Of a stretch of DNA of 64,000 nt, positions 8,150 to 64,000 are shown piece after piece. The notes below the pieces were generated by a model. It was not told the origin of the DNA and did not search any database. It was given only the letters and a program-made list of their open reading frames with translations. Numbering within the stretch: the stretch's first letter is position 1; each line of letters starts with the position of its first letter. Source of the stretch: Antedon mediterranea (taxonomy: Eukaryota; Echinodermata; Crinoidea; Comatulida; Antedonidae); contig NC_092676.1 of NCBI RefSeq assembly GCF_964355755.1, positions 2,026,288-2,090,287 on the forward strand, in the 5' to 3' direction. Made by a program: the position numbers and the translations under genes.

Positions 8150-11100
8150 GTATGTTGGTGGTCGTGTTGTTGTTTCTTAGGGTATGTTGGTGGTCGTGTT
8201 TTTTGTTTCTTAGGGTATGTTGGTGGTCGTGTTGTTGTTTCTTAGGGTATGTTGGTGGTCGTGTTGTTGTTTCTTAGGGTATGTTGGTGGTCGTGTTGTT
8301 GTTTCTTAGGGTATGTTGGTGGTCGTGTTGTTGTTTCTTAGGGTATGTTGGTGGTCGTGTTGTTGTTTCTTAGGGTATGTTGGTGGTCGTGTTGTTGTTT
8401 CTTAGGGTATGTTGGTGGTCGTGTTGTTGTTTCTTAGGGTATGTTGGTGGTCGTGTTGTTGTTTCTTAGGGTATGTTGGTGGTCGTGTTGTTGTTTCTTA
8501 GGGTATGTTGGTGGTCGTGTTGTTGTTTCTTAGGGTATGTTGGTGGTCGTGTTGTTGTTTCTTAGGGTATGTTGGTGGTCGTGTTGTTGTTTCTTAGGGT
8601 ATGTTGGTGGTCGTGTTGTTGTTTCTTAGGGTATGTTGGTGGTCGTGTTGTTGTTTCTTAGGGTATGTTGGTGGTCGTGTTGTTGTTTCTTAGGGTATGT
8701 TGGTGGTCGTGTTGTTGTTTCTTAGGGTATGTTGGTGGTCGTGTTGTTGTTTCTTAGGGTATGTTGGTGGTCGTGTTGTTGTTTCTTAGGGTATGTTGGT
8801 GGTCGTGTTGTTGTTTCTTAGGGTATGTTGGTGGTCGTGTTGTTGTTTCTTAGGGTATGTTGGTGGTCGTGTTGTTGTTTCTTAGGGTATGTTGGTGGTC
8901 GTGTTGTTGTTTCTTAGGGTATGTTGGTGGTCGTGTTGTTGTTTCTTAGGGTATGTTGGTGGTCGTGTTGTTGTTTCTTAGGGTATGTTGGTGGTCGTGT
9001 TGTTGTTTCTTAGGGTATGTTGGTGGTCGTGTTGTTGTTTCTTAGGGTATGTTGGTGGTCGTGTTGTTGTTTCTTAGGGTATGTTGGTGGTCGTGTTGTT
9101 GTTTCTTAGGGTATGTTGGTGGTCGTGTTGTTGTTTCTTAGGGTATGTTGGTGGTCGTGTTGTTGTTTCTTAGGGTATGTTGGTGGTCGTGTTGTTGTTT
9201 CTTAGGGTATGTTGGTGGTCGTGTTGTTGTTTCTTAGGGTATGTTGGTGGTCGTGTTGTTGTTTCTTAGGGTATGTTGGTGGTCGTGTTGTTGTTTCTTA
9301 GGGTATGTTGGTGGTCGTGTTGTTGTTTCTTAGGGTATGTTGGTGGTCGTGTTGTTGTTTCTTAGGGTATGTTGGTGGTCGTGTTGTTGTTTCTTAGGGT
9401 ATGTTGGTGGTCGTGTTGTTGTTTCTTAGGGTATGTTGGTGGTCGTGTTGTTGTTTCTTAGGGTATGTTGGTGGTCGTGTTGTTGTTTCTTAGGGTATGT
9501 TGGTGGTCGTGTTGTTGTTTCTTAGGGTATGTTGGTGGTCGTGTTGTTGTTTCTTAGGGTATGTTGGTGGTCGTGTTGTTGTTTCTTAGGGTATGTTGGT
9601 GGTCGTGTTGTTGTTTCTTAGGGTATGTTGGTGGTCGTGTTGTTGTTTCTTAGGGTATGTTGGTGGTCGTGTTGTTGTTTCTTAGGGTATGTTGGTGGTC
9701 GTGTTGTTGTTTCTTAGGGTATGTTGGTGGTCGTGTTGTTGTTTCTTAGGGTATGTTGGTGGTCGTGTTGTTGTTTCTTAGGGTATGTTGGTGGTCGTGT
9801 TGTTGTTTCTTAGGGTATGTTGGTGGTCGTGTTGTTGTTTCTTAGGGTATGTTGGTGGTCGTGTTGTTGTTTCTTAGGGTATGTTGGTGGTCGTGTTGTT
9901 GTTTCTTAGGGTATGTTGGTGGTCGTGTTGTTGTTTCTTAGGGTATGTTGGTGGTCGTGTTGTTGTTTCTTAGGGTATGTTGGTGGTCGTGTTGTTGTTT
10001 CTTAGGGTATGTTGGTGGTCGTGTTGTTGTTTCTTAGGGTATGTTGGTGGTCGTGTTGTTGTTTCTTAGGGTATGTTGGTGGTCGTGTTGTTGTTTCTTA
10101 GGGTATGTTGGTGGTCGTGTTGTTGTTTCTTAGGGTATGTTGGTGGTCGTGTTGTTGTTTCTTAGGGTATGTTGGTGGTCGTGTTGTTGTTCCTGAAATT
10201 TATCTCTTATAAGGGGTTTTACTATAATTTCAGTTTCTTTTAATTAAAAAGTCCCATATCAAAACAAAAACAAAAAGCCCTAACAAATGTATATTATATC
10301 TCTATAGAAATAATCTATGTAAATATTTATTATTGTACTGTAAATCTTAAGCCCTGTCTATACTATCAAACTAAGTTTGAGAAAAAAGAAGTGTGATGTG
10401 CCCAAATATGGCAGGGATAGGACATCATATATGGGCACATCAAATTAGTTTGAGAAAAAAGAAGTGTGATGTGCCCAAATATGGCAGGGATAGGACACCA
10501 TATGGGCACATCACATTTTTTGTCACATAATGTTTGATAGTGTAGACAGCGCTTTATAGTCTAAGAACATAAATTTACAAAACTATCAATCTAATATACC
10601 ATATAAATCATATGATTCTATATTCAATTTATGTCTATTGACTTACATTTAATTATAATATAACCATAAAATATGTGTTTTTACGCTTTTTTTCACTTGC
10701 AGACTGCTGAAGCCAAGAAGATTATCCGTAATTTCAACAAGATGGCAGCAGTGTTACTAGAATATGAGGTTGGTTCATTTTTATTTGAAAAAAAATAAAA
10801 CACAAATAATTATAATAATTTGTACTAAAAAATATCAAGGAAAATCCAAAACATTATGTGATGTGCCCATATATGGACATGATGATGTCATGTTACTACC
10901 ATATTTGGGCATATCACTACCATATTTGGGACATTACACTTTTTTGTCGAACTGGTTTGATAGTGTAGAAAGAGCATAAGGACAGCTAGCCTTTAAACTG
11001 ATTTTTATGTTTTAAACCTTTAATTTCGTTTTGTATCAGCTACTGTTTCATCGAGGTTGGTTCCGAGCGGTTGACGCGATAAAGTCTGGACTAAATTCAT

Positions 11101-26877: not shown

Positions 26878-29800
26878 TCGTTCTACCACCAGAACTATGG
26901 AGCGAGTAAGCCTTGAACCCTTGCCGATGGTATGGCTACTGTACGTAATCAGGTTCCACTGTCTTAACCGCTCAGTCACATATATAAAGATTGAATATCA
27001 TAGGCGGATTTGAGGTGTTTGAGGGATGGGAGATGATATTTCAAAAAAATCCTGGGTCTGCCACCGGTGGTTTAATACTACAAATCCAGCCTAGTAATAT
27101 GGAGGTCATGGGTTCAAGTCTACTATTTACATATCTTATTTTTCTTTAGATCACCAATGAAATTGTAAGACAAGTGATGGAGAACAGAGGGTTTTACAAC
27201 TTAGAGAAGCCTGGTGATTTTACCAACATTGTAGACATCCAGTATATCGCTGCTATGATCCAACCTGGTGGAGGACGTAACGACATCCCTCAGCGTCTTA
27301 AACGACAGTTTAACGTCTTCAATTCCACGCTGCCTTCCAATCAGTCCATTGATAAGATCTTCTCGACTGTAGGGACAGGTCATTATTGTAAGGTGAGATG
27401 TTTTATTTATTTATTCTTTTTACTGGGTGACCTCTTCAGTAAAAAAGCTGTTCGCCCAGTACACAAAACAGTAAAATTACAAAAGAAAAAACAGACCAGA
27501 TTACAGTTTTTAACTTAAAACAGCACATTGATATTTTTTTAATTTTAATCCATGCTAGTATAAAACAAAGCAAAACAAGGAAAAAAGCTTTTACAAATAA
27601 AGGTCCCTTAAAAAAGAGATATTAATGTTTTGTATATCCAAAGGCAAATTACTGAAAAAATATTAAAATATTTTTTAATATATAGTACAGAATATTGTAT
27701 TATTATGGTTACAACCTCTAAGTTTGAGACAAAAATATTTTATTACAATCTGTATAAAATAGTAATTTAACTACTTTTATATTATAGTATTTTATTATAA
27801 TATTTATGCTAATTTCAATTTTTTGTAGGAGAGAGAATTCTCTGATGAAGTCATTGACCTTGCCGCTATGCTAGTCTCTTGTACCAGACATCTATGGCAG
27901 AGTGTTAAAGTAAAGATGTTACCAACTCCAGCAAAATTCCATTACATTTTTAATTTGAGAGATCTTTCCAGAATCTGGCAGGTATGTACATTTTTAATTG
28001 AAAACCCCTAATATTATAATGAAACAATCCATATAAATTCAAAAATTAATTAATAATTTACTCATTTTGACTGTAACATTTTCTGTATAGGGTATGTTGA
28101 ACACCAACAGTGAGGTTGTGTGTAACCAGTCAGTGTTACTAGCATTATGGAAGCATGAATGCAACAGGGTTATTGCTGATAGGTTCACCAACCAAGAAGA
28201 TAAGAATTGGTTTGAAGCACAAATCAAAAAGGTATGTAAATAGATACTTGGGACAGCGACCTCGGTTTGAGAAGTTATTGTTCCCAGAGTTATTTCATCC
28301 CTTTAGGATGACAAACATAGAAAAGTATTTTTAATTTGTTTTGTGATTTTGCTTCAAATTATGTGAAATTGTTGTTCTTTGATATCAAAACTAATTTTGA
28401 TTAACACAAAACTAACCACAATACAAAAAAGCAATCCTTGTCTCCAGACAACCTGCTTTATTTAATTGACAAGATAATTCATAATCGTTTGTGTTATTTT
28501 TAGTAATGAAGTAAGTTAGTATTATAGGTTTGGTTTCGGTTTTACAAACCTAAACTGATTTTTTAAATATGCTATTCACTAAAGTGTAACAATCTTTTTA
28601 TTGCATCATGAGGACATTTTCATGATGACACCATGTGAACCTTGTTTACAGGATTTTAATGAAATTTTAAAAGAAATTATAGCCCTGCATTTATTCTAAT
28701 ACATTTATTTATTTATGTTTTTGCTCATGAAAAGTTAAAAATATATTTTGGTCAGTATTGTAGTATCAATCAGCTGTCATAGTCATTTTGTCTCTCTGTT
28801 TTTTCTTCTTCTTGTATATTGTACCTCTTGTTTTTAATCACAGTTTCATATCTAGCATAGGAATGTTCTGTTTGTTCTGCTGCATGATCATCAATTGAAC
28901 AGTAAATCTCATTTTTTTCAATAGTGTCACCGACACTAATGGTTTCAATGTTATTTTGATAGTGCACAACAGGTACAGGTGTGTTGTGATGTTTTCTCTT
29001 TTGTTGATCATAACAACACACAACAAACACAAGTAAAACTATCAGTATGATGTTACTTGTTACCAGTATTATGGTTATTGTATTAGCTGTCATTCTTTCT
29101 GTTGGCATGTCATATTTGATATCTCGAGATGTTGTCAGTCTGTCTGTCGGCACAACATCATTACGAATAACTTGTGATGTTGTTAGTCTGTCTGTTAGCT
29201 TGGCATCTTCAATTGTGAATGTTATCTCATTAGATCTGCTCTGAACATCAGTACTCACCAGGCACTTCACAGTGTAGTTACCAGCTGGTAAATTACCAAA
29301 GCATCTTTCATCAGTTTCATTGTAATACTGATACCTAGCTTCCTCCCCATTCAAACTCCAATTATAAATTGTTCTGTCACCAGATCCACCTTCTGCAAAG
29401 CACTTAAAGCAATTCTGGTTCACATCATTATCAGGTGTTTCATATAACCTCTTAACCTCTAGCTTTAACTGAGGGTAAACCGTCAATATCAATGTGTAGC
29501 ACCCGATACCCACATATGTTCTGTTTTTAATAGAAATACAGTAGACAAATATTCCTTCTCCAGAATGAAAACCTTTTTAAAGTCAAAGTAATTTCAATGT
29601 CAGTATCTGCTTGATGAGACTGTGTGATGTGGTACTTTCCTTGGATCCAACCAATTATCACTGCATATTGGAGATTATCATATTTTCTGATGTCACATGA
29701 AATAGATACTTCTTCTCCTTCAATCATGTCTTTCATATTGTCACAATGAAGTTTTACATACCGTGGTTGGCGTCTGCTCGGTGTAACATCTGATGAAGGA

Positions 29801-32800
29801 ACTAAATATTGTAAACTATAATCATCTTGACATGTTCGTATTCCTGTTTGTTGACCAAAAGAAATTAAGCATACGCAGTTCAAATTTAAATCTTTTCCCA
29901 ACAAATCAAGAGTTTCCTGTTTTTCATTTGATGATTTAATTGTCACAGATGACTTCATGTATGATTGGTAATACAACTTTCTGTCAAATTGTACCAACTG
30001 TCTTGAAACTCCATATCTGAATATCAACAAACAAGTCACCAACAAGTTGAAGAATTTCAAAGTCATCTTTAAAAACCTCTCTGTATTGTATATTCATTTC
30101 TTGCATTTTGTAACCTCTTGTTTTCAATCACAGTGTCAGAGCTAACATATACATTTTCAGCTTGTTCTGTTATGTTATCATCAACTGAACAGTAAATCTC
30201 ATTTTCTGTCATTATGTTTGAAACGTCAGTAGTTTTACCAATGCTAATGGTGTCATTATTACTTTGATAGTGTACAGCAGGTACAGATGTCTTCTGCAGT
30301 TTCCTCTTCTGTTGTTCATAACAACACACAACAAACACAAGTAACACTATCAGTATGACATTACTTGTTAACGATATTTTAGTTATCTTATTAGCTGTCA
30401 TGGTTTCTGTTGGATCGTCATATTTGATATCTCGAGATGTTGTCGGTCTATCTGTTGGCATGCCATCTTTAATTGTGAATTCTATCTCATCAGATCTGTT
30501 CTGAACATCAGTACTCACCAGACACTTAACAGTGTAGTTACCAGCTGGTAGATTACCAAAGCATCTTTTATCAGTTTCATTGTAATACTGATACTTGAAT
30601 TCCTCTCCATTCAAACTCCAATTATAAATTGTTCTGTCACCAGATCTACCTTCTGCATAGCACTTGAAGCAATTCTGGTTCACATCAACTTCAGGTGTCT
30701 CACATAGCTTCATAACATCTACCTTTAATTGAGGGTGAACCAGCAATTCCAATGTGTAGCACTCAATACTCACATATGAACCTTGGTTATTTGAAAAACA
30801 GTAGAAAAATATTCCTTCTCCGGAATGAAATCCTTTTACAGTCTGATTAATGGTTGTAGTGTTGTCAGTATCTAGAAGATGAAATTGTGTGATATGGTGC
30901 TGTCTTTGGATCCAGCCAATTGTGATATCATATTGGATGTTGTCATATTTCCTGATATCACATGACATGTTTACTTCCTCTCCTTCAGTTATGTCTTTCA
31001 TATCTTTGTCACAGTAAAGTTTTACATACAGTGGTTGATGTGGGCTCCATGTGACCTCTGATGAAGGTACCACATAGTGTGAATTATAATCATCTTGGCA
31101 TGTGTATATTCCTTTTTCTTGACCAAAAGAAATAAAAAGTTGGCATTTAACTATTAAATCTTTTCCCGGCAATACAACTGTTTTTTGTTCATTTGATGGA
31201 ATAATTGTCACAGGTTGTGGCTTAGTAGACCAGTAATAAAAACCTCTTTCAAATTGTACCAACTCTCTTGAAGCTCCATGTCTGAATATTAATAAACAGA
31301 TCACCAACAGGTTACAGAATTTCAAAGTCATCTTTAAAACCTCTCAGTATTGTTTGTGAAAATATACCATTCTAGTTCCCGATGTGGCCAGCGATAAGAC
31401 TGAATTGATGTTTGTATTTTTATAGGTTTATAATATTGTAATATTTAGTATTTTGAGTTTTGGTTTTTGTTGCTACTGTAATCTCGAAACTAATTTTGTG
31501 AAGAATAATATTTACATGAGCTAACATAGTCATTCTGTCTCTCTGTTCTCATTTCCTGCATTTTGTAACCTCTTGTTTTCAATCACAGTGTCACAGCTAA
31601 CATAGTCAGTCTGTTCTGTTGACTCTCTGTTCTCATTTCTTGCATTTTGTAACCTTTTGTTTTCAATCACAGTGTCAAAGGTAACATAAGAGTCCCAAGT
31701 TTATTCTTTTGTATGATCATCAATTGAACAGTAAAGCTCATTCTTTTCAACCGTTTTTGAAACATTCAAAGTGCCACCAACACTAATTGTGTCATTATTA
31801 CTTTGATAGTGCACAACAGGTACAGGTGTGTTGTGATGTTTCCTCTTTTGTTGTTCATAACAACACACAACACACACAAGTAAAACTATCAGTATGATGT
31901 TACTTGTTGCCAGTATTAGGATTATTGTATTAGCTGTCATGGTTTCTGTTGTCAAGACACATTTGATATCTTGAGATGTTGTCATTCTGTCTCTTGTCAT
32001 GACATCTTCAATTGTGAATGTTATCTCATCAGATCTGTTCTGAACATCAGTACTCACCAGACATTTAACAGTGTAGTTACCAGCTGGTAAATTACTAAAG
32101 CATCTTTCATCGGGTTCATTGTAATTCTTGAATTCCTCTCCATTCAAATTCCAATTATAAATTCTCTTGTCACCAGAGCCACCGTCTGCATAATAACACT
32201 TGAAGCAGTTCTGGTTCACATCAACTTTACATGTTTCATATAACCTTTTAACCTCTACCTTTAATTGAGGGTGAACCAGCAATATCAGTGTGTAGCACCA
32301 AACTGCTTTATAATTAAGTGAAATACAGTAGAAAAATATTCCTTCTCCGGAATGAAATCCTTTTACAGTCTGATTAATTGTTGTAATGTTGTCAGTATCT
32401 AGAAGATGAAATTGTGTGATGTAGTTTTTTCCTTGGATCCAACCAATTGTGATGTCATATTGAATTTGGTCATATTTCCTGATGTCACATGAAATGTTTA
32501 CTTCCTCTCCTTCAATGATGTCTTTCATGTTGTCACAGTAAAGTTTTACATAGAATGATTGACTTCTGCTCTGTGTAACATTTGAGGAAAGAACCAAGTA
32601 TTGTAAATTATCATCATCTTGACATGTGTATATTCCATTTTGTTGATCAAAAGAAATAAAAAGTGGGCATTTAACTATGAAATCTTTTCCTGGAAATACA
32701 AGCGTGTTCTGTTTACTTGATGGTGTAATTGTCACAGGTTGTAGCTTAGTGTGTGATTGGTAATCAAAACCTCTGTCAAATTGTACCAACTCTCTTGAAG

Positions 32801-35800
32801 ATCCATGTCTGAATATCAACAAGCAAGTCATCACCAACAGATTAAAGAATTTTAAAGTCATCTTTAGCATCCTCTCTGTATTTTTTGTGAAAATCCAATC
32901 TCTGAGACTGAAGTGATGTTTGTAGTTGTATAGGTTTATAATACATGGAAACACAAAAGGAAATACAGTATTTAGTATCTGAGTTTTGTTTTTGTTGCTG
33001 CTGTAATATCGAAACTAATTTTGTGAAGAATAATATTTACATGAGCTAACACAGTCAGTCTGTCTCTCTGTTCTAATTTCTTGCATTTTGTAACCTTTTG
33101 TTTTCAATCACAATGTCAAAGGTGACATAGGAGTGCTATGTTTATTCTGCTGTATGATTGCATTTATTTGTTTGAAAAAAACATTTAAGACTTCTAAAAA
33201 GTCAATGATGCTCTATATCTCGCAAGCCAGAAGTCAGTTGAATAGTAAATCTCATTCTTTTCAATATCAATGTGTAGCACCCAATACCCACATATGTTCT
33301 GTTTTTAATAGAAATACAGTAGACAAATATTCCTTCTCCAGAATGAAAACCTTTTAAAGTCAAAGTAATTTCAATGTCAGTATCTGCTTGATGAGACTGT
33401 GTAATGTTTTACTTTCCTTGGATCCAACCAATTGTCACTGCATATTGATGATGTCATATTTTCTGATGTCACATGAAATATTTACTTCCTCTCCTGTAAT
33501 GATGTCTTTCCTAATATTGTTACAGTAAAGGTACTGTGACTGGCGTGTGCTCATTGTAACATCTTGTGTAGAAACCAAATATTATATCATCTTGACATGT
33601 GTGTATTCTTGTTTGTTGACCAAAAGAAATTAAGCATAAGCATTTCAAATTAAATCTTTTCCCACCAAATCACAAGTTTCCTCTTTTTCATTTGATAAAA
33701 TAAAGTGTCACTGATAGTGATAGTGTAAGATTGATAATAAAACTTTCTTTCAAATTGTACTGTCGTAAAGCTTTGAATATCAACAAGCAGATCACCAACA
33801 GGTTAAAGACCTCTCTGTATTGTTTGTGAAAATTCATCCTCTGTTTGTATTTGTATATGTTTATAATATTTAAAATAAACAAAAGAAAATAATTAGTATT
33901 TGAGTTTTGGTTTTTGTTGCTAATAGGCATATATCAAAACTAATTTTGCGAAAGTAAGTAGGTAATATTTATTGCTTTTTGCTTGCTTTCTTTTCTATTT
34001 CTTGCATTTTGTAACCTTTTGTTTCAAATCACAGTGTCAAAGGTAACATAGGAGTCCCATGTTTATTCATCTGTATGATCATCAATTGAACAGTAAACCT
34101 CATGTTCTGCATTAATTTGCTGAACATCAGAAGTGTTACCAACACTAATTGTGTCAATGTTACTTTGATAGTGCACAACTGGTACAGGTGTGTTGTGATG
34201 TTTCCTCTTTTGTTGTTCATAACAACACACAACAAACACAAGTAAAACTATCAGTATGATGTTACTTGTTACTATTATGGTTATCTTATTGGCCTTCTTT
34301 GTAGCTGTTGTCATGTCATCTTTAATTGTAAATGCTATCTCATCAGATCTGTTTTGAACATCAGTACTCACCAGACACTTCACAGTGTATTCACCAGCTG
34401 TTAAATTACCAAAGCACCTTTCAACAGTTTCATAGAAACGATACTGGAATTCCTCTCCTCTCAAACTCCAATTAAAAATCTTTTTACCAGATCCACCTTC
34501 TGCATAACACTTGAAGCAATTCTGGTTCACATCAACTTCATATACCCTTGTGATCTTTACCATTAATTGTGGGTGAACCGCCATAACCAATTGATAGCAA
34601 TACAGTAGAAAAACATCCCTTGTCCAGAATGAAAACATTTAAGAGTCTGAATAATTGTAATGTCAGTATCCGTATGATGAGTCTGTATAATGTTGTGATT
34701 TCCTTGAACCCAAATAGTTGTCACTTCATATTGGATGTTGTCATCTTTTCTGATCAAGTCACATGAAATGTGTACTTCCTCGCCTTCAACGATGTCCCTC
34801 ATACCGTCACAATAGAGGTTTACAAGTTCTGGTTGAGATGTGGTATATGTCACACCCGGCAATGTATAAATAGTATGTTGAAAATTATCATCAAATTGAC
34901 ATAAGTATAGTCCGTGATTAGAACCAAACAATGAAAAGTGGACATTTAACTGTTTCATATTTTCCTGAACGATTAACACTCTTTCGTTTCATTACTGGTG
35001 TGATTGCAATGTTTACCTTACTTGTTGATGAGTACTGAAATTTGTAACTAAATTTTACCAAACTTCTTGAAGCTCCTCCATGTCTGAATATCAACAAGCA
35101 AGTCATCACCAACAGATTAACAATTTTTAAAGTCATCTTTAAAACCTCTCTGTATTGTTTGTGAAAACACACCCTTCTAGTTCCAGATGTGGCCAGCAAT
35201 AAGACTGAATTGATGTTTCTATTTTTATAGGTTTATAATATTGTAATATTTAGTATTTTGAGTTTTGGTTTTTGTTGCTACTGTAATATCGAAACTAATT
35301 TTGTGAAGAATAATATCTACATGAGCTAACATGGTCATTCTGTCTCTCTGTTCTCATTTCTTGCATTTTGTAACCTTTTGTTTCCAATCACAGTGTCAAA
35401 GGTGACATAAGAGTGCTATGTTTATTCTGCTGTATGATTATCAATTGAACAGTAAAGCTCATTCTTTTCAACAGTTTGCAAAGCATTCAAAGTGTCACCA
35501 ACATTAATTGTATCATTATTACTTTGATAGTGCACAACAGGTACAGGTGTGTTGTGATGTTTCCTCTTTTGTTGTTCATAACAACACACAACAAACATGA
35601 GTAAAACTATCAGTATCATGTTACTTGTTACCAGTATTATAGTTATTGTATTAACTGTCATGGTTTCTGTTGTTGTGTAATGTTTTCCTTGGATTCAACC
35701 AATTGCGATGTCATATTGGATGTTGTCATTTTTCCTGATGTCACATGACATGTTTACTTCCTCTCCTTCAATCATGTCTTTCATATTGTCACAGTAAAGT

Positions 35801-38800
35801 TTTACATACCGTGGTTGATGTGGGCTCCATGTAACATCTGATGAAGGTACCACATAGTGTGAATTATCATCATCGTGGCATGTGTATATTCCTTTTTCTT
35901 GAACAAAAGAAATAAAAAGTTGGCATTTGACTTTGAAATCTTTTAATGGCATTACAAGCGTTTTCTGTTTATTTGATGGTGTAATTGTCACAGGTTGTAG
36001 CTTAGTGTATGATTGGTAATAAAAACCTCGGTCAAATTGTACCAACTGTCATGAAGCTCCATGTCTGAATATCAACAAGCAAGTCACCACCAACAGGTTA
36101 AAGAATTTCAAAGTCATCTTTAGAAACCTCTCTGTATTGTTTGTGAAAATCCAAATCCTCAGTTCCTGATGTGGCCAGAGACTAAAGTGATGTTTGTATT
36201 TGTATAGTTTTATAATATAGTAACACAAAAAATAATATTTAGTATTTGTGTTTTGTTTTTGTTGCTACTGTAATATCGAAACTAATTTTGTGAAGAATAA
36301 TATTTACATGAGCTAACATAGTCAGTCTGTCTCTCTTTTTTTCATTGCATTTTGTAACATTTTGTTTCCAATCACAGTGTCAAGGGTAACATAGGAGTGC
36401 CATGTTTATTCTGCTGTATGATCATCAATTGAACAGTAAATCTCATTTTTTTCAATGGTTTGCAAAACATTCAAAGTGTCACCAACACTAATTGTGTCAT
36501 TGTTTCTTTGATAGTGCACAACAGGTACAGGTGTGTTGTGATGTTTCCTCTTTTGTTGTTCATGACAACACACAATAAACACAAGTAAAACTATCAGTAT
36601 GATGTTACTTGTTACTAGTATTATGATTATTGTATTAGCTGTCATGATTTCTGTTGTCAAGACACATTTGATATCTTGAGATGTTGTCATTCTGTCTCTT
36701 GTCATAACATCTTCAATTGTGAATGTTATCTCATCAGATCTGTTCTGAACATCAGTACTCACCAGACACTTAACAGTGTAGTTACCAGCTGGTAAATTAC
36801 TAAAGCATCTTTCATCGGGTTCATTGTAATTCTTGAATTCCTCTCCATTCAAATTCCAATTATAAATTCTCTTGTCACCAGAGCCACCGTCTGCATAATA
36901 ACACTTGAAGCAGTTCTGGTTCACATCAACTTTACATGTTTCATATAACCTTTTAACCTCTACCTTTAATTGAGGGTGAACCAGCAATATCAGTGTGTAG
37001 CACCAAACTGCTTTATAATTAAGTGAAATACAGTAGAAAAATATTCCTTCTCCGCCGGAATGAAATCCTTTTACAGTCTGATTAATTGTTGTAGTGTTGT
37101 CAGTATCTAGAAGATGAAATTGTGTGATGTAGTTTTTTCCTTGGATCCAACCAATTGTGATGTCATATTGAATTTGGTCATATTTCCTGATGTCACATGA
37201 AATGTTTACTTCCTCTCCTTCAATGATGTCTTTCATGTTGTCACAGTAAAGTTTTACATACAGTGGTTGATGTGGGCTCCATGTGACCTCTGATGAAGGT
37301 ACCACATAGTGTGAATTATAATCATCTTGGCATGTGTATATTCCTTTTTCTTGACCAAAAGAAATAAAAAGTGGGCATTTAACTATGAAATCTTTTCCTG
37401 GAAATACAAGCGTGTTCTGTTTACTTGATGGTGTAATTGTCACAGGTTGTAGCTTAGTGTGTGATTGGTAATCAAAACCTCTGTCAAATTGTACCAACTC
37501 TCTTGAAGATCCATGTCTGAATATCAACAAGCAAGTCATCACCAACAGATTAAAGAATTTTAAAGTCATCTTTAGCATCCTCTCTGTATTTTTTGTGAAA
37601 ATCCAATCTCTGAGACTGAAGTGATTTTTGTATTTGTATAGGTTTATAATACATGGAAACACAAAAGGAAATACAGTATTTAGTATCTGAGTTTTGTTTT
37701 TGTTGCTGCTGTAATATCGAAACTAATTTTGTGAAGAATAATATTTACATGAGCTAACACAGTCAGTCTGTCTCTCTGTTCTAATTTCTTGCATTTTGTA
37801 ACCTTTTGTTTTCAATCACAATGTCAAAGGTGACATAGGAGTGCTATGTTTATTCTGCTGTATGATTGCATTTATTTGTTTGAAAAAAACATTTAAGACT
37901 TCTAAAAAGTCAATGATGCTCTATATCTCGCAAGCCAGAAGTCAGTTGAATAGTAAATCTCATTCTTTTCAATATCAATGTGTAGCACCCAATACCCACA
38001 TATGTTCTGTTTTTAATAGAAATACAGTAGACAAATATTCCTTCTCCAGAATGAAAACCTTTTAAAGTCAAAGTAATTTCAATGTCAGTATCTGCTTGAT
38101 GAGACTGTGTAATGTTTTACTTTCCTTGGATCCAACCAATTGTCACTGCATATTGATGATGTCATATTTTCTGATGTCACATGAAATATTTACTTCCTCT
38201 CCTGTAATGATGTCTTTCCTAATATTGTTACAGTAAAGGTACTGTGACTGGCGTGTGCTCATTGTAACATCTTGTGTAGAAACCAAATATTATTATCATC
38301 TTGACATGTGTGTATTCTTGTTTGTTGACCAAAAGAAATTAAGCATAAGCATTTCAAATTAAATCTTTTCCCAACAAATCACAAGTTTCCTCTTTTTTAT
38401 TTGATAAAGTAAAGTGTCACTGATAGTGATAGTGTAAGATTGATAATAAAACTTTCTTTCAAATTGTACTGTCGTAAAGATTTGAATATCAACAAGCAGA
38501 TCACCAACAGGTTAAAGACCTCTCTGTATTGTTTGTGAAAATTCATCCTCTGTTTGTATTTGTATATGTTTATAATATTTAAAATAAACAAAAGAAAATA
38601 ATTAGTATTTGAGTTTTGGTTTTTGTTGCTAATAGGCATATCAAAACTAATTTTGCGAAAGTAAGTAGGTAATATTTATTGCTTTTTGCTTGCTTTCTTT
38701 TCTATTTCTTGCATTTTGTAACCTTTTGTTTCAAATCACAGTGTCAAAGGTAACATAGGAGTCCCATGTTTATTCATCTGTATGATCATCAATTGAACAG

Positions 38801-41800
38801 TAAACCTCATGTTCTGCATTAATTTGCTGAACATCAGAAGTGTCACCAACACTAATTGTGTCAATGTTACTTTGATAGTGCACAACTGGTACAGGTGTGT
38901 TGTGATGTTTCCTCTTTTGTTGTTCATAATAACACACAACAAACACAAGTAAAACTATCAGTATGATGTTACTTGTTACTATTATGGTTATCTTATTGGC
39001 CTTCTTTGTAGCTGTTGTCATGTCATCTTTAATTGTAAATGCTATCTCATCAGATCTGTTCTGAACATCAGTACTCACCAGACACTTGACAGTGTATTCA
39101 CCAGCTGTTAAATTACCAAAGTTTCATAGAAACGATACTGGAATTCCTCTCCTCTCAAACTCCAATTAAAAATCTTTTTACCAGATCCACCTTCTGCAAA
39201 CACTTGAAGCAATTCTGGTTCACATCAACTTCATATACCCTTGTGATCTTTACCATTAATTGTGGGTGAACCGCCATAACCAATTGATAGCAATACAGTA
39301 GAAAAACATCCCTTGTCCAGAATGAAAACATTTAAGAGTCTGAATAATTGTAATGTCAGTATCCGTATGATGAGTCTGTATAATGTTGTGATTTCCTTGA
39401 ACCCAAATAGTTGTCACTTCATATTGGATGTTGTCATCTTTTCTGATCAAGTCACATGAAATGTGTACTTCCTCGCCTTCAACGATGTCTCTCATACCGT
39501 CACAATAGAGTTTTACAAGTTCTGGTTGAGATTTGGTCCATGTTACACCTGATTTATAAATAGTATATTGAGTTTTATCATCAAATTGACATTAGTATAT
39601 TCCTTGATTAGAACCAAACGAAATGAAAAGTGGACATTTAACTGTTTCATATTTTCCGTAACAAATAACACTCTGTTGTTTACTTGATGGTGTGATTGCA
39701 ATGTTTACCTTACTTGTTAATGAGTACTAAAACTTTAAATCAAATATTACCAAACTTCTTGAAGCTCCTCCATGTCCGAATATCAACAAGCATGTCATCA
39801 CCAACAGATTAACAATTTTTGAAGTCATCTTTAAAAACCTTTCTGTATTGTTTGTGAAAATCCACCTTTCTAGTTCCTGATGTGGCCAGAGACTGAAGTG
39901 ATGTTTGTATTTCTATAGGTTTATAATATGAAATAAACACAAAAGAAAATAATTAGTATTTGAGTTTTGGTTTTTGTTGCTAATGGGCTATTTTGTGAAA
40001 TTAAGTAGGTAATATTTATGGCTTTTCAAGAAATGTACAATTTATAAAATAGCATAATATTTGAATGAAAGTAAAAGGATTGAATAATATACACATTTAA
40101 CATTGAGAAATTAAACATGGAAAGCAGGGGATAATAAGAAAGAACAATATTTAAATCAGTAAGTGTCTATAAAAACTCCAATAAAGTACAAGTTTAAACT
40201 GTAATCTATTGTTCTTAAAGGTTGCAGAGGCAGACCTTGGCACAGCATTAGCAGAGCAAATCCCTGCTGAACCGTTCTTTGTTGACTTTCTACGAGATGC
40301 TCCTGAAATAACAGGTTAACTTTTTTGTTAAAATTGTTTGTTTATGCCAAATCTATTTCATGGTGTTGCCATCGCTATATTTATATATTAACATAGATTA
40401 ATAGTAGTTTACTAACTAACATTTTTCATGGCTTTTTACATATAAATGTTGTATACTTTTTTTTAGATTGTTTTGAAAATTATCATCTATCTGTAATGAA
40501 ATAAACTCATGCAGGATTTGGACCCACAATTGTGTAACTTACTTATATCTTGGTATCTTTGGTTTTGACAAGAAAAATACAAAATTTCTGCATTGTTTAC
40601 AATAAAAATTACAATAAAAATGCAATATTCAAATATTAAAATTACATCAAAAATTTAAAATGTATGTATAAAAAAAACAATCGATTTCACGATAAAATTA
40701 CAATATAATATAAAAATGACATCAAAAAGTTCAATTTAAATATTAAAAAAACCTTCGTTGAGAGACGTAAAATATCTAAGTATATAAAGTGACATCAAAA
40801 GAGTAACGATAAAAATATTTAAACAAAGTATCATTGATCATAGACAGTTTTGGTTATTTAGTAATCTGGTTTTACAAACGTATATTTACTAAAAATGTTA
40901 CTTATTATATTTTGTAGGTGATGAACCCGATGATGCTGACCTAGATGCACCTAAGATATATGAACCAATAGAATCCTATCAACAACTAAACGACAGGCTG
41001 ATAGGGTTCATGGCTCAGTACAATGAAACAGTGAGAGGGGGCAAGATGGATTTGGTCTTCTTTAAGGTAATACATATGAGAGTTATCAACCTGTAGCCGT
41101 ATTCACCAATCACACTTAAGTGAGATATATTAAGTGTTTATATATATAATATTAAGTATTTCACTTGAACTCAATAAATACTTAAGTATTTCTCTTAAAT
41201 TGTATTCACTTTACGTAGAAGATTTTTTTTCTTAGCTTAAGTATGAATGGTGAATTCAGCCAATGAGTTGTACTAGAAATTACTAAAGGTTACAGCTTAT
41301 TTAATAACAGTATGTTAGTAGAGTACACAGTACAGTATACCTGTGAAACGAGGGGCAATATGTGTTTTAAAAACCCCTTTCCTGCAATTTTGGACGTTTT
41401 TTGGAAAATAATACATATATATCACTTTAAAAACATTAAACCATGTCATTCCTTGTCTTAAATGTACGTTTTATGGTAAATTATGATAAAAAGTGAGAAA
41501 CAATGCACTACCTAAGTAGCTCGCGGCGATCGACCTCTCGTGGACGGTCTTAGGCCTAGCCTAGCTAGGCTTAGTTTTGTAGGCCTAGCTGGTAAACATC
41601 GATAACGTACGAACATCGTACGCTAGCTATATACCTAGCCTGACGTTGTATAGTTGCTGCATTAATTGTCTTTCTATTTTTGCCAGACTCCGTTGATACA
41701 AATTGGGGAAAACCCGGTATTTTCGCTGAAAAGTTAGGAGTCTTCCATTTGTTTTGGCTTCACGATCGATCGAAAAGTGGGCGAATTACAGGTGAAAAAC

Positions 41801-44800
41801 AAAAATATCAATCCGCGCGCAATGCATTTTGGGATTTACAGCGGGCCGCTATAAATATTAGAATCGATTTATTTTTCACATTTTTAACCGTTTAAAGACG
41901 AAAAAAGTTATCGCAATAGGACAATATAGTATTATTTTTACATTAAATATAGTTTGTGATCTTAAATTAGATCTAAAAAACGTAGGGAATGGGGCTTTAA
42001 TGTGACACTTATGCTGGATTCCTAAAGCCTGTTTTCCTGTCGACGTTATTCACGTTGATCGTTAACAGTTCAACGACGATCGTTTGAAAACGATCAAGTT
42101 GAAATGATAACGATAGCGTGTACTTTTTCCTGTAAATCGTTAACATTTCAATGTTTTTTTATGTAGAAGATCGCCGATTATTGTTAACCATGGCGTCAAC
42201 TAACGTCGACAGGAAAACAGTCTTAAGGTGTCCTCTTATAGTGACTCTACTGTTTTTTTTAAATCGATAAGAAAATATGTTCAAGTTTATTATTTATTTT
42301 ATTTGCTATAAACTATACCATGGGTTAATTTGTTTTAGGTAATTAGGTAATACAGTATTAGGGTAACAATAATGGTTCACTTGGTTGTAGTAGGTGGTAA
42401 TGGTACACAGGTAATACCTCCCTGGTTACCAGTACCTGTAAACATTGGTTATGGTTTGGTGGTGGTATATGGTATTGGGTGCTTGTTGTGGCAGTGGTGC
42501 TAATATCAAATACATATTATACATTTATATTTTCACTAGGATGCTATGGTGCATTTAGTTAAGATATCTAGAATAATCCGTACGCCACGTGGTAATGCTC
42601 TGCTAGTTGGTGTTGGTGGTTCTGGTAAGCAGAGCCTAACAAGATTAGCCTCATTCATTGCTGGATACAAGAGCTTTCAAATAACACTGACAAGGTTTGT
42701 CTTTTAATTATTGTATTTAAACTGGAATAAATTCAGTTCCAAATGTTTTACTCCCCTTATCTTATATCTTATTTTGCAATACATTTTAACAATACAAACT
42801 TACGGTACTAATTTGTCTGACAACAATGATAGGGACTAAGATTCAATTCAATTCAATCAACTTTATTGTCAAACTCATGAATGGCTTGAAACTTTGGCTG
42901 AAACACACATTAAAAGATGGACCAATACACCAGGGTACCTCAACATATGCACTGGTTTCTTTGTGCGCACAAGCCAGATATGTACACTGGACCTCCAGTT
43001 TTAAGTCCTTTCAAGAAGACTTATTCTACCACCAGAACTATGAGGAGGGACTTGAACCGGTGCTATGGCTCGGCTATTCAACCCCACAAACTTATTCAAG
43101 TTTACTTGACTTACCAAGTTTCCATATTTTGAAATAAAAAAATATGTCTCCAAGGTGAATTAATATATGGAAATAAAAATATATTGTTTTTTTTTAATTT
43201 TTACTCTCATTTTCTTAGATCGTATAATGTTGCCAACTTGATGGATGATCTAAAGCATCTTTATCGTACGGCAGGTCAACAAGGTCAAGGAATAACGTTC
43301 ATCTTTACCGATAATGAGATTAAAGATGAAGGATTCTTGGAGTATATGAACAACGTACTAGCATCAGGAGAAGTAAATAAACAAAACTGAAATTTTGTCC
43401 ACCAAACATTTAGCTTTAAAAACTTCCTTATTTTGTCTAATTATTGGTATTTATTGTTTTTAATAAATAATACTTATTGTCATCTTTCTTTTCATAATTA
43501 ATTTCTTCTTATTTCAGGTTTCAAATTTATTTGCCCGTGATGAAATAGATGAGATCACAGGTGAGCTGATACCAGTTATGAAGAAAGAGTTTCCAAGACG
43601 ACCGCCGACCAATGAGAATCTTTACGAGTATTTCTTGAGCAGAGTCCGCGCCAACCTACATGTGGTTTTGTGCTTCTCACCTGTAAGTCAATCTCTGGAT
43701 GTTTTGCTTTGTTAAAATCTTGAAGCTGATAAGGTTATCACTATGATTTCCACAAATTAATAGAACTGTAGCTAGATGGTTAACATGCTTGCCTTCCAAT
43801 CCCAAGGTCCAGGGTTCAATCCTGACCTAGTGCTTTTTTTAAAAATGGTAGTTCTAGAGTGTTGACATGATTTGAACCGAGGACCCAAGAATTCTTGTTA
43901 ACGACTAAGCTACAGCGCCACTATTATAGATTTATGCTCAGGGTTGACAGTCACATCAATATCAGTATACGAAAGCCACAATTATTATCATGATGAATAA
44001 AGAAAAACAAATTATTTTTTATTTTATTTTCTTATCATGTCAGGTTGGTGAAAAGTTCCGTAGCCGCTCGTTAAAGTTTCCCGGTCTGATCTCCGGCTGT
44101 ACAATGGATTGGTTCAGCCGATGGCCAAAAGACGCCCTTATAGCAGTGTCGCAACATTTCCTGTCAAGTTTTGAGATTGTTTGCACAGATACTGTCAAAC
44201 AGAGTGTTGTTAACACTATGGGTGTCTTCCAGGTAATGTAAAACAAATTTTCAGTACACCAATGCTGTGTCTACACTATCAAACTAGTTTGACAAAAAAA
44301 TGTGATATGCCCAAATTTGGTAGTGATATGGCCAAATATGGTGGTGATATGACATCATCATGTCCATATATGGACACATCACATTTTTTTGTCAAATAAA
44401 GTTGGATAGTGTAGACAGAGCTTTAGACCATTTTCAGCTACAATCAATCAATCAATCGTAATTTCATTTTTCAATTTAGGACATGGTTGCGGAATCTTGC
44501 ATCGATTATTTTCAGCGTTTCCGGCGACAGATGCATGTCACTCCAAAGTCGTACTTATCGTTTATCGACAGCTTCACTCAGGTGTATGCTGAGAAGCTCA
44601 AAGCTATTGGTATCCTTGCTAATAGGATGCAAACTGGTAAGCATTATTTTTAAATTGCTTAATTTAAACTTGCGGTTATAGGAAAAACTTTCCAACACAC
44701 AAGAAATGTTTAAAAGCTATGGCCAACACCTTTAGGGGTTCTAAACCAGAATTATATGTATGTATGTACGAGTAAGAGATATTAAACTAGATCATCTGTA

Positions 44801-47800
44801 TGTATGTACGAGTAAGAGATATTAAACTAGATCGTCTGTATGTATGTATGAGTAAGAGATATTAAACTAGATCATCTGTATGTATGTATGAGTAAGAGAT
44901 ATTAAACTAGATCATCTGTATGTATGTACGAGTAAGAGATATTAAACTAGATCATCTGTATGTATGTATGAGTAAGAGATATTAAACTAGATCATCTGTA
45001 TGTATGTATGAGTAAGAGATATTAAACTAGATCATCTGTATGTATGTATGAGTAAGAGATATTAAACTAGATCATCTGTATGTATGTATGAGTAAGAGAT
45101 ATTAAACTAGATCGTCTGTATGTATGTACGAGTAAGAGATATTAAACTAGATCATCTGTATGTATGTATGAGTAAGAGATATTAAACTAGATCATCTGTA
45201 TGTATGTACGAGTAAGAGATATTAAACTAGATCATCTGTATGTATGTATGAGTAAGAGATATTAAACTAGATCATCTGTATGTATGTATGAGTAGGAGAT
45301 ATTAAACTAGATCATCTGTATGTATGTACAAGTAAGAGATATTAAACTAGATCATCTGTATGTATGTATGAGTAAGAGATATTAAACTAGATCATCTGTA
45401 TGTATGTACGAGTAAGAGATATTAAACTAGATCATCTGTATGTATGTACAAGTAAGAGATATTAAACTAGATCGTCTGTATGTATGTATGAGTAAGAGAT
45501 ATTAAACTAGATCGTCTGTATGTATGTATGAGTAAGAGATATTAAACTAGATCATCTGTATGTATGTATGAGTAAGAGATATTAAACTAGATCATCTGTA
45601 TGTATGTATGAGTAAGAGATATTAAACTAGATCGTCTGTATGTATGTACAAGTAAGAGATATTAAACTAGATCGTCTGTATGTATGTACGAGTAAGAGAT
45701 ATTAAACTAGATCATCTGTATGTATGTATGAGTAAGAGATATTAAACTAGATCATCTGTATGTATGTATGAGTAAGAGATATTAAACTAGATCATCTGTA
45801 TGTATGTATGAGTAAGAGATATTAAACTAGATCGTCTGTATGTATGTATGAGTAAGAGATATTAAACTAGATCGTCTGTATGTATGTACAAGTAAGAGAT
45901 ATTAAACTAGATCATCTGTATGTATGTACAAGTAAGAGATATTAAACTAGATCATCTGTATGTATGTACAAGTAAGAGATATTAAACTAGATCATCTGTA
46001 TGTATGTATGAGTAAGAGATATTAAACTAGATCGTCTGTATGTATGTACAAGTAAGAGATATTAAACTAGATCATCTGTATGTATGTATGAGTAAGAGAT
46101 ATTAAACTAGATCGTCTGTATGTATGTACAAGTAAGAGATATTAAACTAGATCATCTGTATGTATGTACAAGTAAGAGATATTAAACTAGATCATCTGTA
46201 TGTATGTATGAGTAAGAGATATTAAACTCGATCATCTGTATGTATGTATGAGTAAGAGATATTAAACTAGATCGTCTGTATGTATGTACAAGTAAGAGAT
46301 ATTAAACTAAATCGTCTGTATGTATGTACAAGTAAGAGATATTAAACTAGATCATCTGTATGTATGTATGAGTAAGAGATATTAAACTAGATCATCTGTA
46401 TGTATGTACGAGTAAGAGATATTAAACTAGATCATCTGTATGTATGTACAAGTAAGAGATATTAAACTAGATCATCTGTATGTATGTATGAGTAAGAGAT
46501 ATTAAACTAGATCATCTGTATGTATGTACGAGTAAGAGATATTAAACTAGATCATCTGTATGTATGTATGAGTAAGAGATATTAAACAAGATCATCTGTA
46601 TGTATGTACGAGTAAGAGATATTAAACTAGATCATCTGTATGTATGTACGAGTAAGAGATATTAAACTAGATCGTCTGTATGTTGTATGTATGTTATTCT
46701 TGGTCCTCAAGTCTAACTGAAAACTAAGGAAATTTAGATTGAGCTCTCCACAGACACGGCAGCCAGCAGTACTGTAACAGCGCCTACCAGATGAGCACAC
46801 CAGGAGACGATCCCCTACTTTTTCGAATAGTGTACCAAGTTCTTGTTCAGTACAGTTTCGTTCCTCCCACTAATGCCAGTCGCATCCAAGAGGTAGTCTT
46901 CTCTAGCATCTAAATTTATGCTGGGTCCTACTGTTGAAAGCCTTCCTTGACTGGGTTAGCTTCTTTAGCTTGACTAGGATCGCACTGAAGGAGATTGCTT
47001 AATTAATGTTGTCTTTTTTTAGGTCTTGCTAAATTAGTGGAAGCTACAAGTTCTGTAAATGAACTGAGCAAAGAACTGGCTGTGAAAGAGAAAGAACTGG
47101 CAGTGGCATCCAAGAAGGCAGATGCTGTATTGGCAGAGGTCACTGTTAGTGCTCAGGCCGCTGAAAAGGTCAAGGCACAAGTCCAAAAAGTCAAAGATAA
47201 AGCCCAGGCTATTGTAGATGAGATTGAGGTGAATACACAATTCAATTTTTGTCAATAAAACTTTTGATACTTTTTTGAAATTCTGTCTATAATGTTTAAA
47301 TTTTTAAAAACATGGGAATTTTTTTTAAATTGAGAATTTTACAATTTTGTTTAGGCTGACAAAGCTATAGCTACCGAGAAGCTAGAAGCAGCTAAGCCAG
47401 CATTAAAAGAAGCCGATGCAGCCCTCAACACCATCAAGCCAACCCACATCTCAACAGTGCGTAAGTTAGCTAAGCCACCTCATCTCATCATGAGGATTAT
47501 GGACTGTGTGCTGTTACTGTTCCAGCATAAGATGGACTCGCCTTCGTTAGACCCAGAGAAGCCTTGCATGAAGCCATGCTGGGGGGAATCATTGAAACTT
47601 ATGGGAGGCAGCAACTTCTTGCAAGGACTTCTCTCTTTTCCAAAGGTAACAATTCAATTTAATTCTTTATTAATACATAAAAAAAAATATGATAAAATTA
47701 ACTTCAAGAAGGTAAACAACAAAACAAACAACATCAAAACTTTCAAAAACAATTATTTCTCCTGTTAACATAATTATTAACCGGCAAAATCATGCACTGC

Positions 47801-50800: not shown

Positions 50801-53800
50801 TCTGTGTATTCCTACATTTCTATGTTACTATTGTAGGTGAAAGTTGGAGACAAAGAAATAGATGTGATGAATGGATTCTGTCTGTATATAACAACGAAGC
50901 TGGCCAATCCTGCATACACGCCAGAGGTCAGTGCCAGAACGTCCATCATTGACTTCACGGTCACCATCAAAGGACTTGAAGACCAGTTGCTAGGAATCGT
51001 CATCTTGACGGAGAAGAATGAACTGGAAGCTGAAAGAGTCAAACTTATGGAAGAGGTTGGTGAACATTTGTAATTTCGTTTCTAAAGCTCCGTCTGCACT
51101 AGCAAACTTTATGTGAAAAAAATGTTATGTGCCCATATATGGACATGATGATGTCATATCACTACCATATTTGGGTATATCACACTTTTTTTGTTAAACT
51201 AGTTTGATAGTGTAGACAGAGCTTTACAGAGTGAAGTATTAAGGGCGTGTTCAGACTTATTTACCTGTGTAAATTAGTAATCTACCCACCAAAGTTAACT
51301 ATAAGTGTTCCATAAATCAGCTTAGCGGGTAAGTAAATAAGCCTGAACAAACCCGTGGAATGTCAGTTAAATGTGTTTATAAACTTTTTCACAAAAAAAT
51401 AGTTTTATTTATTGATTCTTCTTGCTTTGCACAGGTCACAGCAAACAAGCGCAAGATGCAGGAACTAGAAGATAACCTTCTGTACAGACTAACAAGTACA
51501 GAGGGCTCACTAGTAGAAGATGAGTCACTGATTGAGGTGCTGAAAGTCACTAAAGAAACGGCTGAAGACGTTAGTGAGAAACTGACGATTGCTGCTGAGA
51601 CAGAGATACGTATAAACACAGCAAGAGAGGAGTTCAGACCGGTTGCTACTAGAGGAAGTATCCTGTACTTCTTGATAGTGGAAATGAGTATGGTGAACGT
51701 TATGTACCAGACGTCTCTTAAACAGTTCCTTGGGATCTTTGACTTATCCATGGCAAAGTAAGTTTATTTGTCTCTCATAAATCCCTTTCACATTGCCAGC
51801 AGCAAAACTTGGTGTGTACTCTAGGGCTTGGCAATGTGAAACGGGTTATTTGTAGATTTAAAAGACTTTGAAATGGCTTGTTTTTTACATTGTTCCATTC
51901 AAGGTAGAAACAGATCTCCTATATCACATATGCACAATCAAGTTTTTAAATACTCTTTTAAAACCAGTGAGAAAAGTTTAGCTCTTTCTTGAAGTGTTGT
52001 GTATATATCTTGACCTCAAATGTTTTTTTACATTAAATCTCACCTTTTATTCACAGATCTACAAAAAGCCCCATAACAGGTAAGCGTATCAACAACATAA
52101 TTGAATACCTGACATATGAATCGTTCCAGTACACAGCCAGAGGGTTGTATGAAAACCACAAGTTCCTATTTACACTCCTGCTTGCGCTCAAGATTGACCT
52201 GCAAGGAAAGAAGATCAAACACGAGGAATTTCAAACACTTATCAAAGGTAAGATTCTGTTGTTCCAATGGACTTAAAGTGAATTACTATTACTACTGTGT
52301 AGCTATTCTATGCAAAATGTACTACCAAACCCAAGTGTAAGCCCACTCCGAGATATAAGTCCATCTCCTGAATTTTGAGACATTTGTATGGAAAATTATC
52401 TTTCATATTGTGGTTGTTGCATATAATGCCACCAAAGAAGAGGCTGGGCTTATCTGAAATCAATACAGTTAAAAATGTTTTATTAATAATTGTCCATTCC
52501 ACTGTAAATGAAATGAAGTTAAATGTTGATGTTTACTCTTGTGACTATAGGTGGCGCTGCTCTAGATTTAAATGCAGTGGAACAAAAGCCCAAGAAATGG
52601 ATCTCAGACATGACCTGGTTGAACCTGGTCCAGTTGAGCAAACTTCCGCAGTTCTCACAGATCCTAGGTCAGATAGGTCGCAACGACAAAGGCTGGAAAG
52701 GTTGGTTTGATGAAGATGCACCAGAAGAGGCTGTGATTCCAGATGGATATTCTGCTTCTCTTGATGTCTTTCGTAAGCTTCTGTTGGTGAGGTCGTGGTG
52801 TCCGGATCGTACCATTCCGCAGGCTAGGCATTATATTGCAGGTTCTATTGGTGTTAAGGTAAGTCTTGCTTGCTGTAGTATGGTGGTATGGTATGGTGCC
52901 CAAACATGGTAGTGATATGCCCAAACATGGTAGTGATATGCCCAAACATGGTAGTGATATGCCCAAACATGGTAGTGATATGCCCAAACATGGTAGTGAT
53001 ATGCCCAAACATGGTAGTGATATGCCCAAACATGGTAGTGATATGCCCAAACATGGTAGTGATATGCCCAAACATGGTAGTGATATGCCCAAACATGGTA
53101 GTGATATGCCCAAACATGGTAGTGATATGCCCAAACATGGTAGTGATATGTCCATTAAAGGGCACATCACATTTTTTTGTCACATAAAGTTTGATAGTGT
53201 AGACAAGGCTTTAGAAGTGTTTTGTCTTAAAAATAAATTTTATGCAACAATTGTTTTTTTGTAGTTTGCAGAGGGTGTTATTCTGAATATGGAAGAAATG
53301 CAGAATGAAAGTACAAAGCGTGTTCCATTGATCTGTTTCCTGTCAATGGGATCTGATCCTACTGAGAACATTGAGAGACTAGCCAAGAAAATGGGAATCA
53401 GTAAGTTTAAATGATATCATTCAATGTAATAAGTTATATAAAGCTCTGTCCACACTATCAAACTAGTTTGTAGACAGAGCTTTATTCATTCATACATTAA
53501 TGTATATCTCTTTTATTGTTCAATTGTATATTGATTACAGGATGCTCTGCCATCAGCATGGGACAGGGACAGGAAGTGCACGCGAGACGACTCATTTCAG
53601 GATGCATGCAAGATGGAGGATGGGCACTCCTCCAAAATTGCCATCTTGGTTTAGATTTCATGGATGAATTACTTGAAACAGTAAGTTCACAGTACAATAT
53701 AAATGTATTATCTAACAAATATAAACATGGCAAGCTATTTTGCATGCAGGTGTAATTTATACCGTACATGATTAAGTATAATCCCATGCTCAAGTATTTA

Positions 53801-60547: not shown

Positions 60548-64000
<3,453 letters not shown>

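Follow-up and report, generated by a model that had tools for sequence, protein, structure and literature searches.

Within an intron of a DNAH5-type axonemal dynein heavy chain gene, the crinoid Antedon mediterranea carries nine tandemly arrayed units of a single gene family, located in a stretch of 64,000 nucleotides of its genome (RefSeq assembly GCF_964355755.1, contig NC_092676.1, positions 2,026,288 to 2,090,287). This whole stretch is termed here the window, and all coordinates refer to it. A tblastn comparison of one unit (B) with the window places all nine on the minus strand, at 28770-39828, and in three of them (B, C and G) a single open frame runs from a hydrophobic leader at the N terminus through to the cytoplasmic tail. 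We read the array, with a probability of about 0.55, as a young birth-and-death family of type I immunoglobulin (Ig)-like receptors that has so far been found in crinoids only, its outer domain diversifying and its tail bearing tyrosine. The observations behind this reading are the anatomy of the units by sequence, the history of their copying, gene conversion and the selection acting on the second and third extracellular domains (D2 and D3; the first is D1), and the use of such receptors in immunity or allorecognition is plausible.

The host intron (28232..40220, plus strand) is 11,989 bp long, and the array, antisense to the dynein gene, occupies about 11,060 bp, or 92%, of it. A dynein exon ends at 28231 and the next ones start at 40221 and 40918, with GT/AG boundaries; joined together, these three exons match residues 2803-2931 of dynein axonemal heavy chain 5 (8j07) in an alignment interrupted by a single gap of two residues. 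The exons flanking the array encode contiguous dynein heavy chain residues, for which DNAH5 is the closest among solved structures.

All units lie on the minus strand. The open ones are B (30069..31331; 420 residues, long tail), C (31701..32870; 389 residues, short tail) and G (36406..37578; 390 residues, short tail), the last being a near-copy of C except for a tract in D1 and the C-terminal part. Their open frames of 389-420 codons compare with a longest stop-free stretch of 162 codons, and a mean of 90, after mononucleotide shuffling of the array strand (200 shuffles). Judged from these frames, the units are apparently single-exon. The other six are broken by frameshifts, stops or deletions: A (28770..30066) has one frameshift near 29570 and a long tail; D (about 33076..33813) contains stops, and its match skips D3 and the helix; E (34063..35136) has two frameshifts; F (35422..36117) has stops and has lost most of D2-D3; H (about 37784..38516) is a broken copy of D with stops, lacking D3 and the helix; and I (38770..39828) is a broken copy of E with stops, frameshifts and a small deletion.

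The ectodomain of B (30462..31265, minus strand) is predicted by AlphaFold2 to form three beta domains, D1 (residues 23-105), D2 (106-200) and D3 (201-290); the best of five models has a predicted local distance difference test score (pLDDT) of 80.2 and a predicted template modelling score (pTM) of 0.73. Both D2 (C124-W140-C178) and D3 (C224-W238-C270) hold a Cys-Trp-Cys core at Ig spacing, and the same residues align in C and G and in two further Antedon proteins, P0001 and P0002, described below. The cysteines of D1 (C63 and C78) are 15 residues apart with no tryptophan at Ig spacing, so that this domain has no Cys-Trp-Cys core. In a fold search with the ectodomain model, D3 matches Ig domains of Fc receptors, SIRP and Siglec, and D1-D2 appear all-beta (ten-residue pLDDT means of 78-90), the best rows covering them being RbmA and VPS26; the absence of a family from these lists was not counted as evidence. 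An Ig-like character is supported for D3, by predicted fold and Cys-Trp-Cys core, and for D2, by Cys-Trp-Cys core and modelled beta sandwich. A first, full-length model (pLDDT 45) was too poor to serve as a basis, and its matches to CD22 and to viral proteins are leads at most. At the inner face of the membrane, a cysteine pair and basic residues stand beside the single helix. Much of this architecture had been proposed in a first-pass annotation of the same DNA. Its nine minus-strand units inside a dynein intron were borne out by tblastn and by the exon alignment to DNAH5, its counts of three open and six broken units hold, and its two Ig-like domains are supported in the manner just described; the leader, the cysteine and tryptophan positions, the sequons, the one transmembrane region and the EQQKRK motif are all as it described them, and its assignment of the units to one birth-and-death family of small membrane proteins, of type I, is supported.

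In all seven readable units (A, B, C, E, F, G and I) the tail carries YCSI or YCSV after [NH]E[ILV]. A shared TAA lies a few residues past this motif in C, E, F, G and I, leaving a short tail with one motif; beyond it the frame continues into YVT[FL]DTVI, which E, F and I interrupt by more stops. In A and B the latter stretch is in frame with YCS and the tail is long, B being the only such copy among the open ones. The two-motif tail of the first-pass annotation thus holds for B and for the broken A, and fails for the five units that share the TAA. Its suspicion that the motifs miss the strict immunoreceptor tyrosine-based inhibitory motif (ITIM) proved correct: the open copies have eight tail tyrosines (four in B, two each in C and G), not one of which fits [S/I/V/L]xYxx[I/V/L], and YCSI/YCSV has Glu at position -2. 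The activation motif (ITAM; two YxxL/I, 6-12 residues apart) is likewise absent from these copies, with one YxxI each in C and G and with YVSS as the second tyrosine after YCSV in B. Glu at -2 and Ile or Leu at -1 resemble the substrate sites of Src-family kinases. The YxxI/L/V core is listed for the FcoR receptors of Botryllus in PMC12065747. The last residues of B derive from its junction with A, where the sequence that acts as leader ahead of the starts of other units begins inside the last codons of B, and unit A starts two bases after the stop of B.

The units have been copied both singly and in blocks. The block C-D-E recurs as G-H-I with 106 mismatches in 3,609 columns, and these are unevenly spread: 44 fall in the first 480 columns (the 5' part of E/I), 24 in 120 columns of C/G D1 and 25 in about the last 310 (the C/G tail), the remaining 13 being scattered over about 2,700 columns. 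Of the 227 variable sites among B, C and G, G sides with B at 35, including 24 in a row, whereas 100,000 permutations never gave a run longer than 8. The run marks a tract of 134 bp in D1 of G (37239..37372, minus strand) that is identical to B. Since B and G differ by 11.9% in D2-D3, this tract is a gene conversion between two open genes. Hypervariability of D1 was considered on the E-I pair alone and dropped, as the excess there lies at one end of a recently copied block and may reflect a block boundary; the excess of differences at the C-terminal end of C/G sits at the opposite end, and for the same reason it is not claimed as conversion. A self-comparison of 27501-41000 against the window revealed only direct repeats among the units.

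Selection was analyzed by domain in nine of the 21 pairs that seven units can form; A, E, F and I entered the codon counts with their stop codons masked, and D and H were omitted, being too broken to align by codon. For D2 and D3 together, the nonsynonymous rate (dN) is below the synonymous rate (dS), with a 95% interval excluding zero, in seven of the nine pairs. The B-C pair has a dN of 0.108 against a dS of 0.245, the ratio is 0.43-0.44 for B-C and B-G, and C-G and E-I show few changes in these domains. For D1, no pair shows a significant deficit of dN (ratios 0.57 to 1.89) and none of the nine shows positive selection, and its dN exceeds that of D2 and D3 in eight of nine pairs; over the whole length, dN/dS is 0.53 for B-C. 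Because dN falls significantly below dS in D2 and D3 and not in D1, the former show purifying selection and were maintained as a protein scaffold after the copies split, with D1 less constrained.

A core-promoter-like arrangement, TATAAA-N22-TTCAGTCT (TTTAGTCT in F), precedes six units (B, C, E, F, G and I), beginning at a distance of 70-101 bases from their start codons; no match was found ahead of A, D and H. In B it spans 31397..31432, and the others start at 32940 (C), 35237 (E), 36214 (F), 37648 (G) and 39925 (I), all on the minus strand and all identified by pattern matching. Elsewhere in the window the pattern has one minus-strand and three plus-strand matches, compared with 1.3 expected per strand per 64 kb under a Markov model. 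Each live gene would probably be read from its own TATA-initiator promoter, antisense to dynein, to yield a product composed of a leader, the cysteine-paired beta domain D1, the Ig-like D2 and D3, one helix and a tail with one YxxI/V tyrosine, to which the long-tail copies would add a second tyrosine stretch. D1 may be the part that meets a ligand, since it is the most variable domain and two open genes have exchanged a stretch of it by conversion; D2 and D3 would be kept as a scaffold, holding D1 off the membrane. The tail could then be phosphorylated by a Src-type kinase, recruit an SH2 protein and pass on a signal. New copies would be born by tandem and block duplication, and would die by frameshift, deletion or loss of the promoter.

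The only relatives recovered were two unnamed predicted proteins of A. mediterranea itself. Searches of about 5.8 billion proteins, in which a match requires shared five-residue words, returned P0001 (249 residues; 65% identity over 52% of B) and P0002 (499 residues; 37% identity over 69%), and a further search started from P0002 in the same set returned nothing but P0002. No named relative was found in Pfam, by sequence in PDB or in this protein set, and the first-pass annotation had not recognised the family either; as distant relatives may escape a search by five-residue words, this absence should not be pressed far. No Pfam family exceeds its cut-off for B, C or G, and a below-cut-off match to Ig_3 occurs, among these, in B only. 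P0001 and P0002 match no Ig profile except ICAM_N in P0002 (E 0.63), whose helix region also has a below-cut-off match to the baculovirus family Orf78 (22.7 bits against 29.4). Membership in Y_Y_Y (E 0.002-0.009, below cut-off, and seen in P0002 as well) was rejected, as the match covers only part of D3. Literature searches listed no paper on such receptors in crinoids. In all six units that keep D3 (A, B, C, E, G and I), the D3 codons CTG GTG AGT resemble a minus-strand splice donor (34366-34374 in E, 36757-36765 in G, and the same place in the others). The gene model of P0001 departs from homology at this site, and thus a spliced form without the helix is possible.

Several points weigh against the receptor reading. 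The promoter-like pattern was drawn up after the sequence had been inspected, three of its six bearers being broken units. The best Ig matches come from D3, where confidence in the model is lowest (ten-residue pLDDT means of 59-80); the numerous Fc receptor rows stem from just a few proteins; in Foldseek, the B ectodomain matches transglutaminases, factor XIII and protein 4.2 best, at template modelling scores of about 0.3; and the best Ig profile, Ig_3, scores 12.3 bits against a cut-off of 30. The compared pairs share branches and include broken copies, and overall dN/dS is 0.99 for E-I, both broken, a value qualified by the location of 27 of its 31 nonsynonymous changes in D1, next to where the copied block ends. 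The selection signature among copies that the first-pass annotation had named as a test is thus present in D2 and D3, as noted above, and absent from D1 and from the helix plus tail, where none of the nine pairs shows significant constraint. As, in addition, inspection of P0002 by eye shows four tail tyrosines and no YxxI/L/V among them, the tail motif is neither demonstrably maintained nor conserved in the family.

Some of these observations would also be expected of a relic, an array once active in which all copies, including the open ones, are now silent and maintenance ended only recently. The six broken units, the E-I ratio, the helix and tail without significant constraint and the end of B in residues from its fusion with A's leader all suit such a history, which we nevertheless consider unlikely in view of the three long open frames, the low D2-D3 ratios of B-C and B-G and the promoter-like element kept in all three open units. 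A similarly low probability is assigned to the proposal that the products are cell adhesion or gamete recognition molecules instead of immune receptors, with the tail tyrosine acting as a YxxPhi sorting signal and not in signalling. The YxxPhi consensus covers YCSI/YCSV as well as the YMEF with which P0002 ends, B, C and G have neither ITIM nor ITAM, and fast outer domains are common in gamete proteins as well; the copy-number turnover and the conversion, however, fit this use and an immune one alike.

Rather doubtful is a more ambitious proposal, that the array is a crinoid germline diversification device in which block copies and broken units form a reservoir that pastes pieces of outer domain into open genes. 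Were it true, it would supply a changing repertoire for recognizing self or microbes, yet the single tract observed joins two open genes and does not run from a broken unit to an open one. Very improbable, finally, is a link to a virus or mobile element, from which the gene was captured or which carried it, with spread as an intronless Ig-like decoy. The units are apparently intronless, the fold of the poor first model weakly matched those of viral proteins (a giant-virus protein best, at E 6.3e-6) and the Orf78 match of P0002 points the same way; against this, the self-comparison yielded only direct repeats among units, no search aimed at mobile-element genes having been made, most units keep their own promoter-like element, and both relatives found are animal proteins.

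Other features of the window lie outside the array. A RUNX-type gene is identified as a neighbour, downstream of the dynein exons, by a Runt-domain exon at 60548-61066 on the plus strand (PF00853, E 9.8e-51). Between dynein-like exons, 64 copies of a 32-bp unit form a tandem array at 8142-10191 (99% matches, strong strand skew), and a second tandem array, at 44742-46689, has 48.7 copies of a 40-bp unit (96% matches). A dispersed 21-bp repeat around CCAAATATGGTAGTGATA is scattered over 10402-59087, with its longest run at 52897-53154; it has 32 matches at two or fewer mismatches, compared with 0.01 expected, none of them within the receptor array. Rfam gave no match in the window at gathering thresholds.

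Comparison with known receptor systems reveals several partial likenesses. Siglecs bind sialic acid through a V-set first domain with an essential arginine. The likeness of the array units to domains 1-3 of CD22 came from the first model and is a lead at most; CD22 is absent among the best 50 rows listed for the better model, which is not used as evidence, and the units, unlike Siglecs, have no ITIM and D1 cysteines only 15 residues apart. D3 superposes on an Ig domain of FcgammaRIII, FcepsilonRI and SIRP at 2.3-3.1 Å over 75-82 residues with 10-20% identity, yet there is no significant sequence match in PDB and no ITIM in the units, and echinoderms are not known to have antibodies. The FcoR of Botryllus are clustered type I Ig receptors of 520-610 residues, with a V-type Ig, a sushi and two C2-type Ig domains, whose tails can hold canonical ITIMs and hemi-ITAMs (hemITAMs) or may hold only the core Y-x-x-I/L/V, as described in PMC12065747. 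The array units are likewise clustered, type I and Ig-like with a core tyrosine motif, but have three beta domains and 386-420 residues. The Alr proteins of Hydractinia are a further case of invertebrate Ig-like receptors that are hard to recognise by sequence. Their host phylum differs; candidates at the alr locus include ITIM and hemITAM motifs, according to PMC12065747. A place among the Alr or the Botryllus fuhc receptors would be judged by allelic polymorphism and by linkage to histocompatibility outcome, whereas the present analysis covers a single sequence.

Membership of the array in any of these families is not claimed; we infer instead that it may work in the manner of the clustered Ig-like receptors found in tunicates, cnidarians and vertebrates. 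Fast-turning clusters of Ig-like receptors with tyrosine tails occur in all three groups, and crinoids are the sister group of the other living echinoderms. Such clusters are covered, in part, in PMC12065747. The three open genes offer candidates for a part in the immunity or tissue compatibility of crinoids. A separate and apparently intronless version, which has so far come to light in crinoids only, would add to these systems an independent example of an outer domain that diversifies and undergoes conversion between copies above a conserved scaffold.
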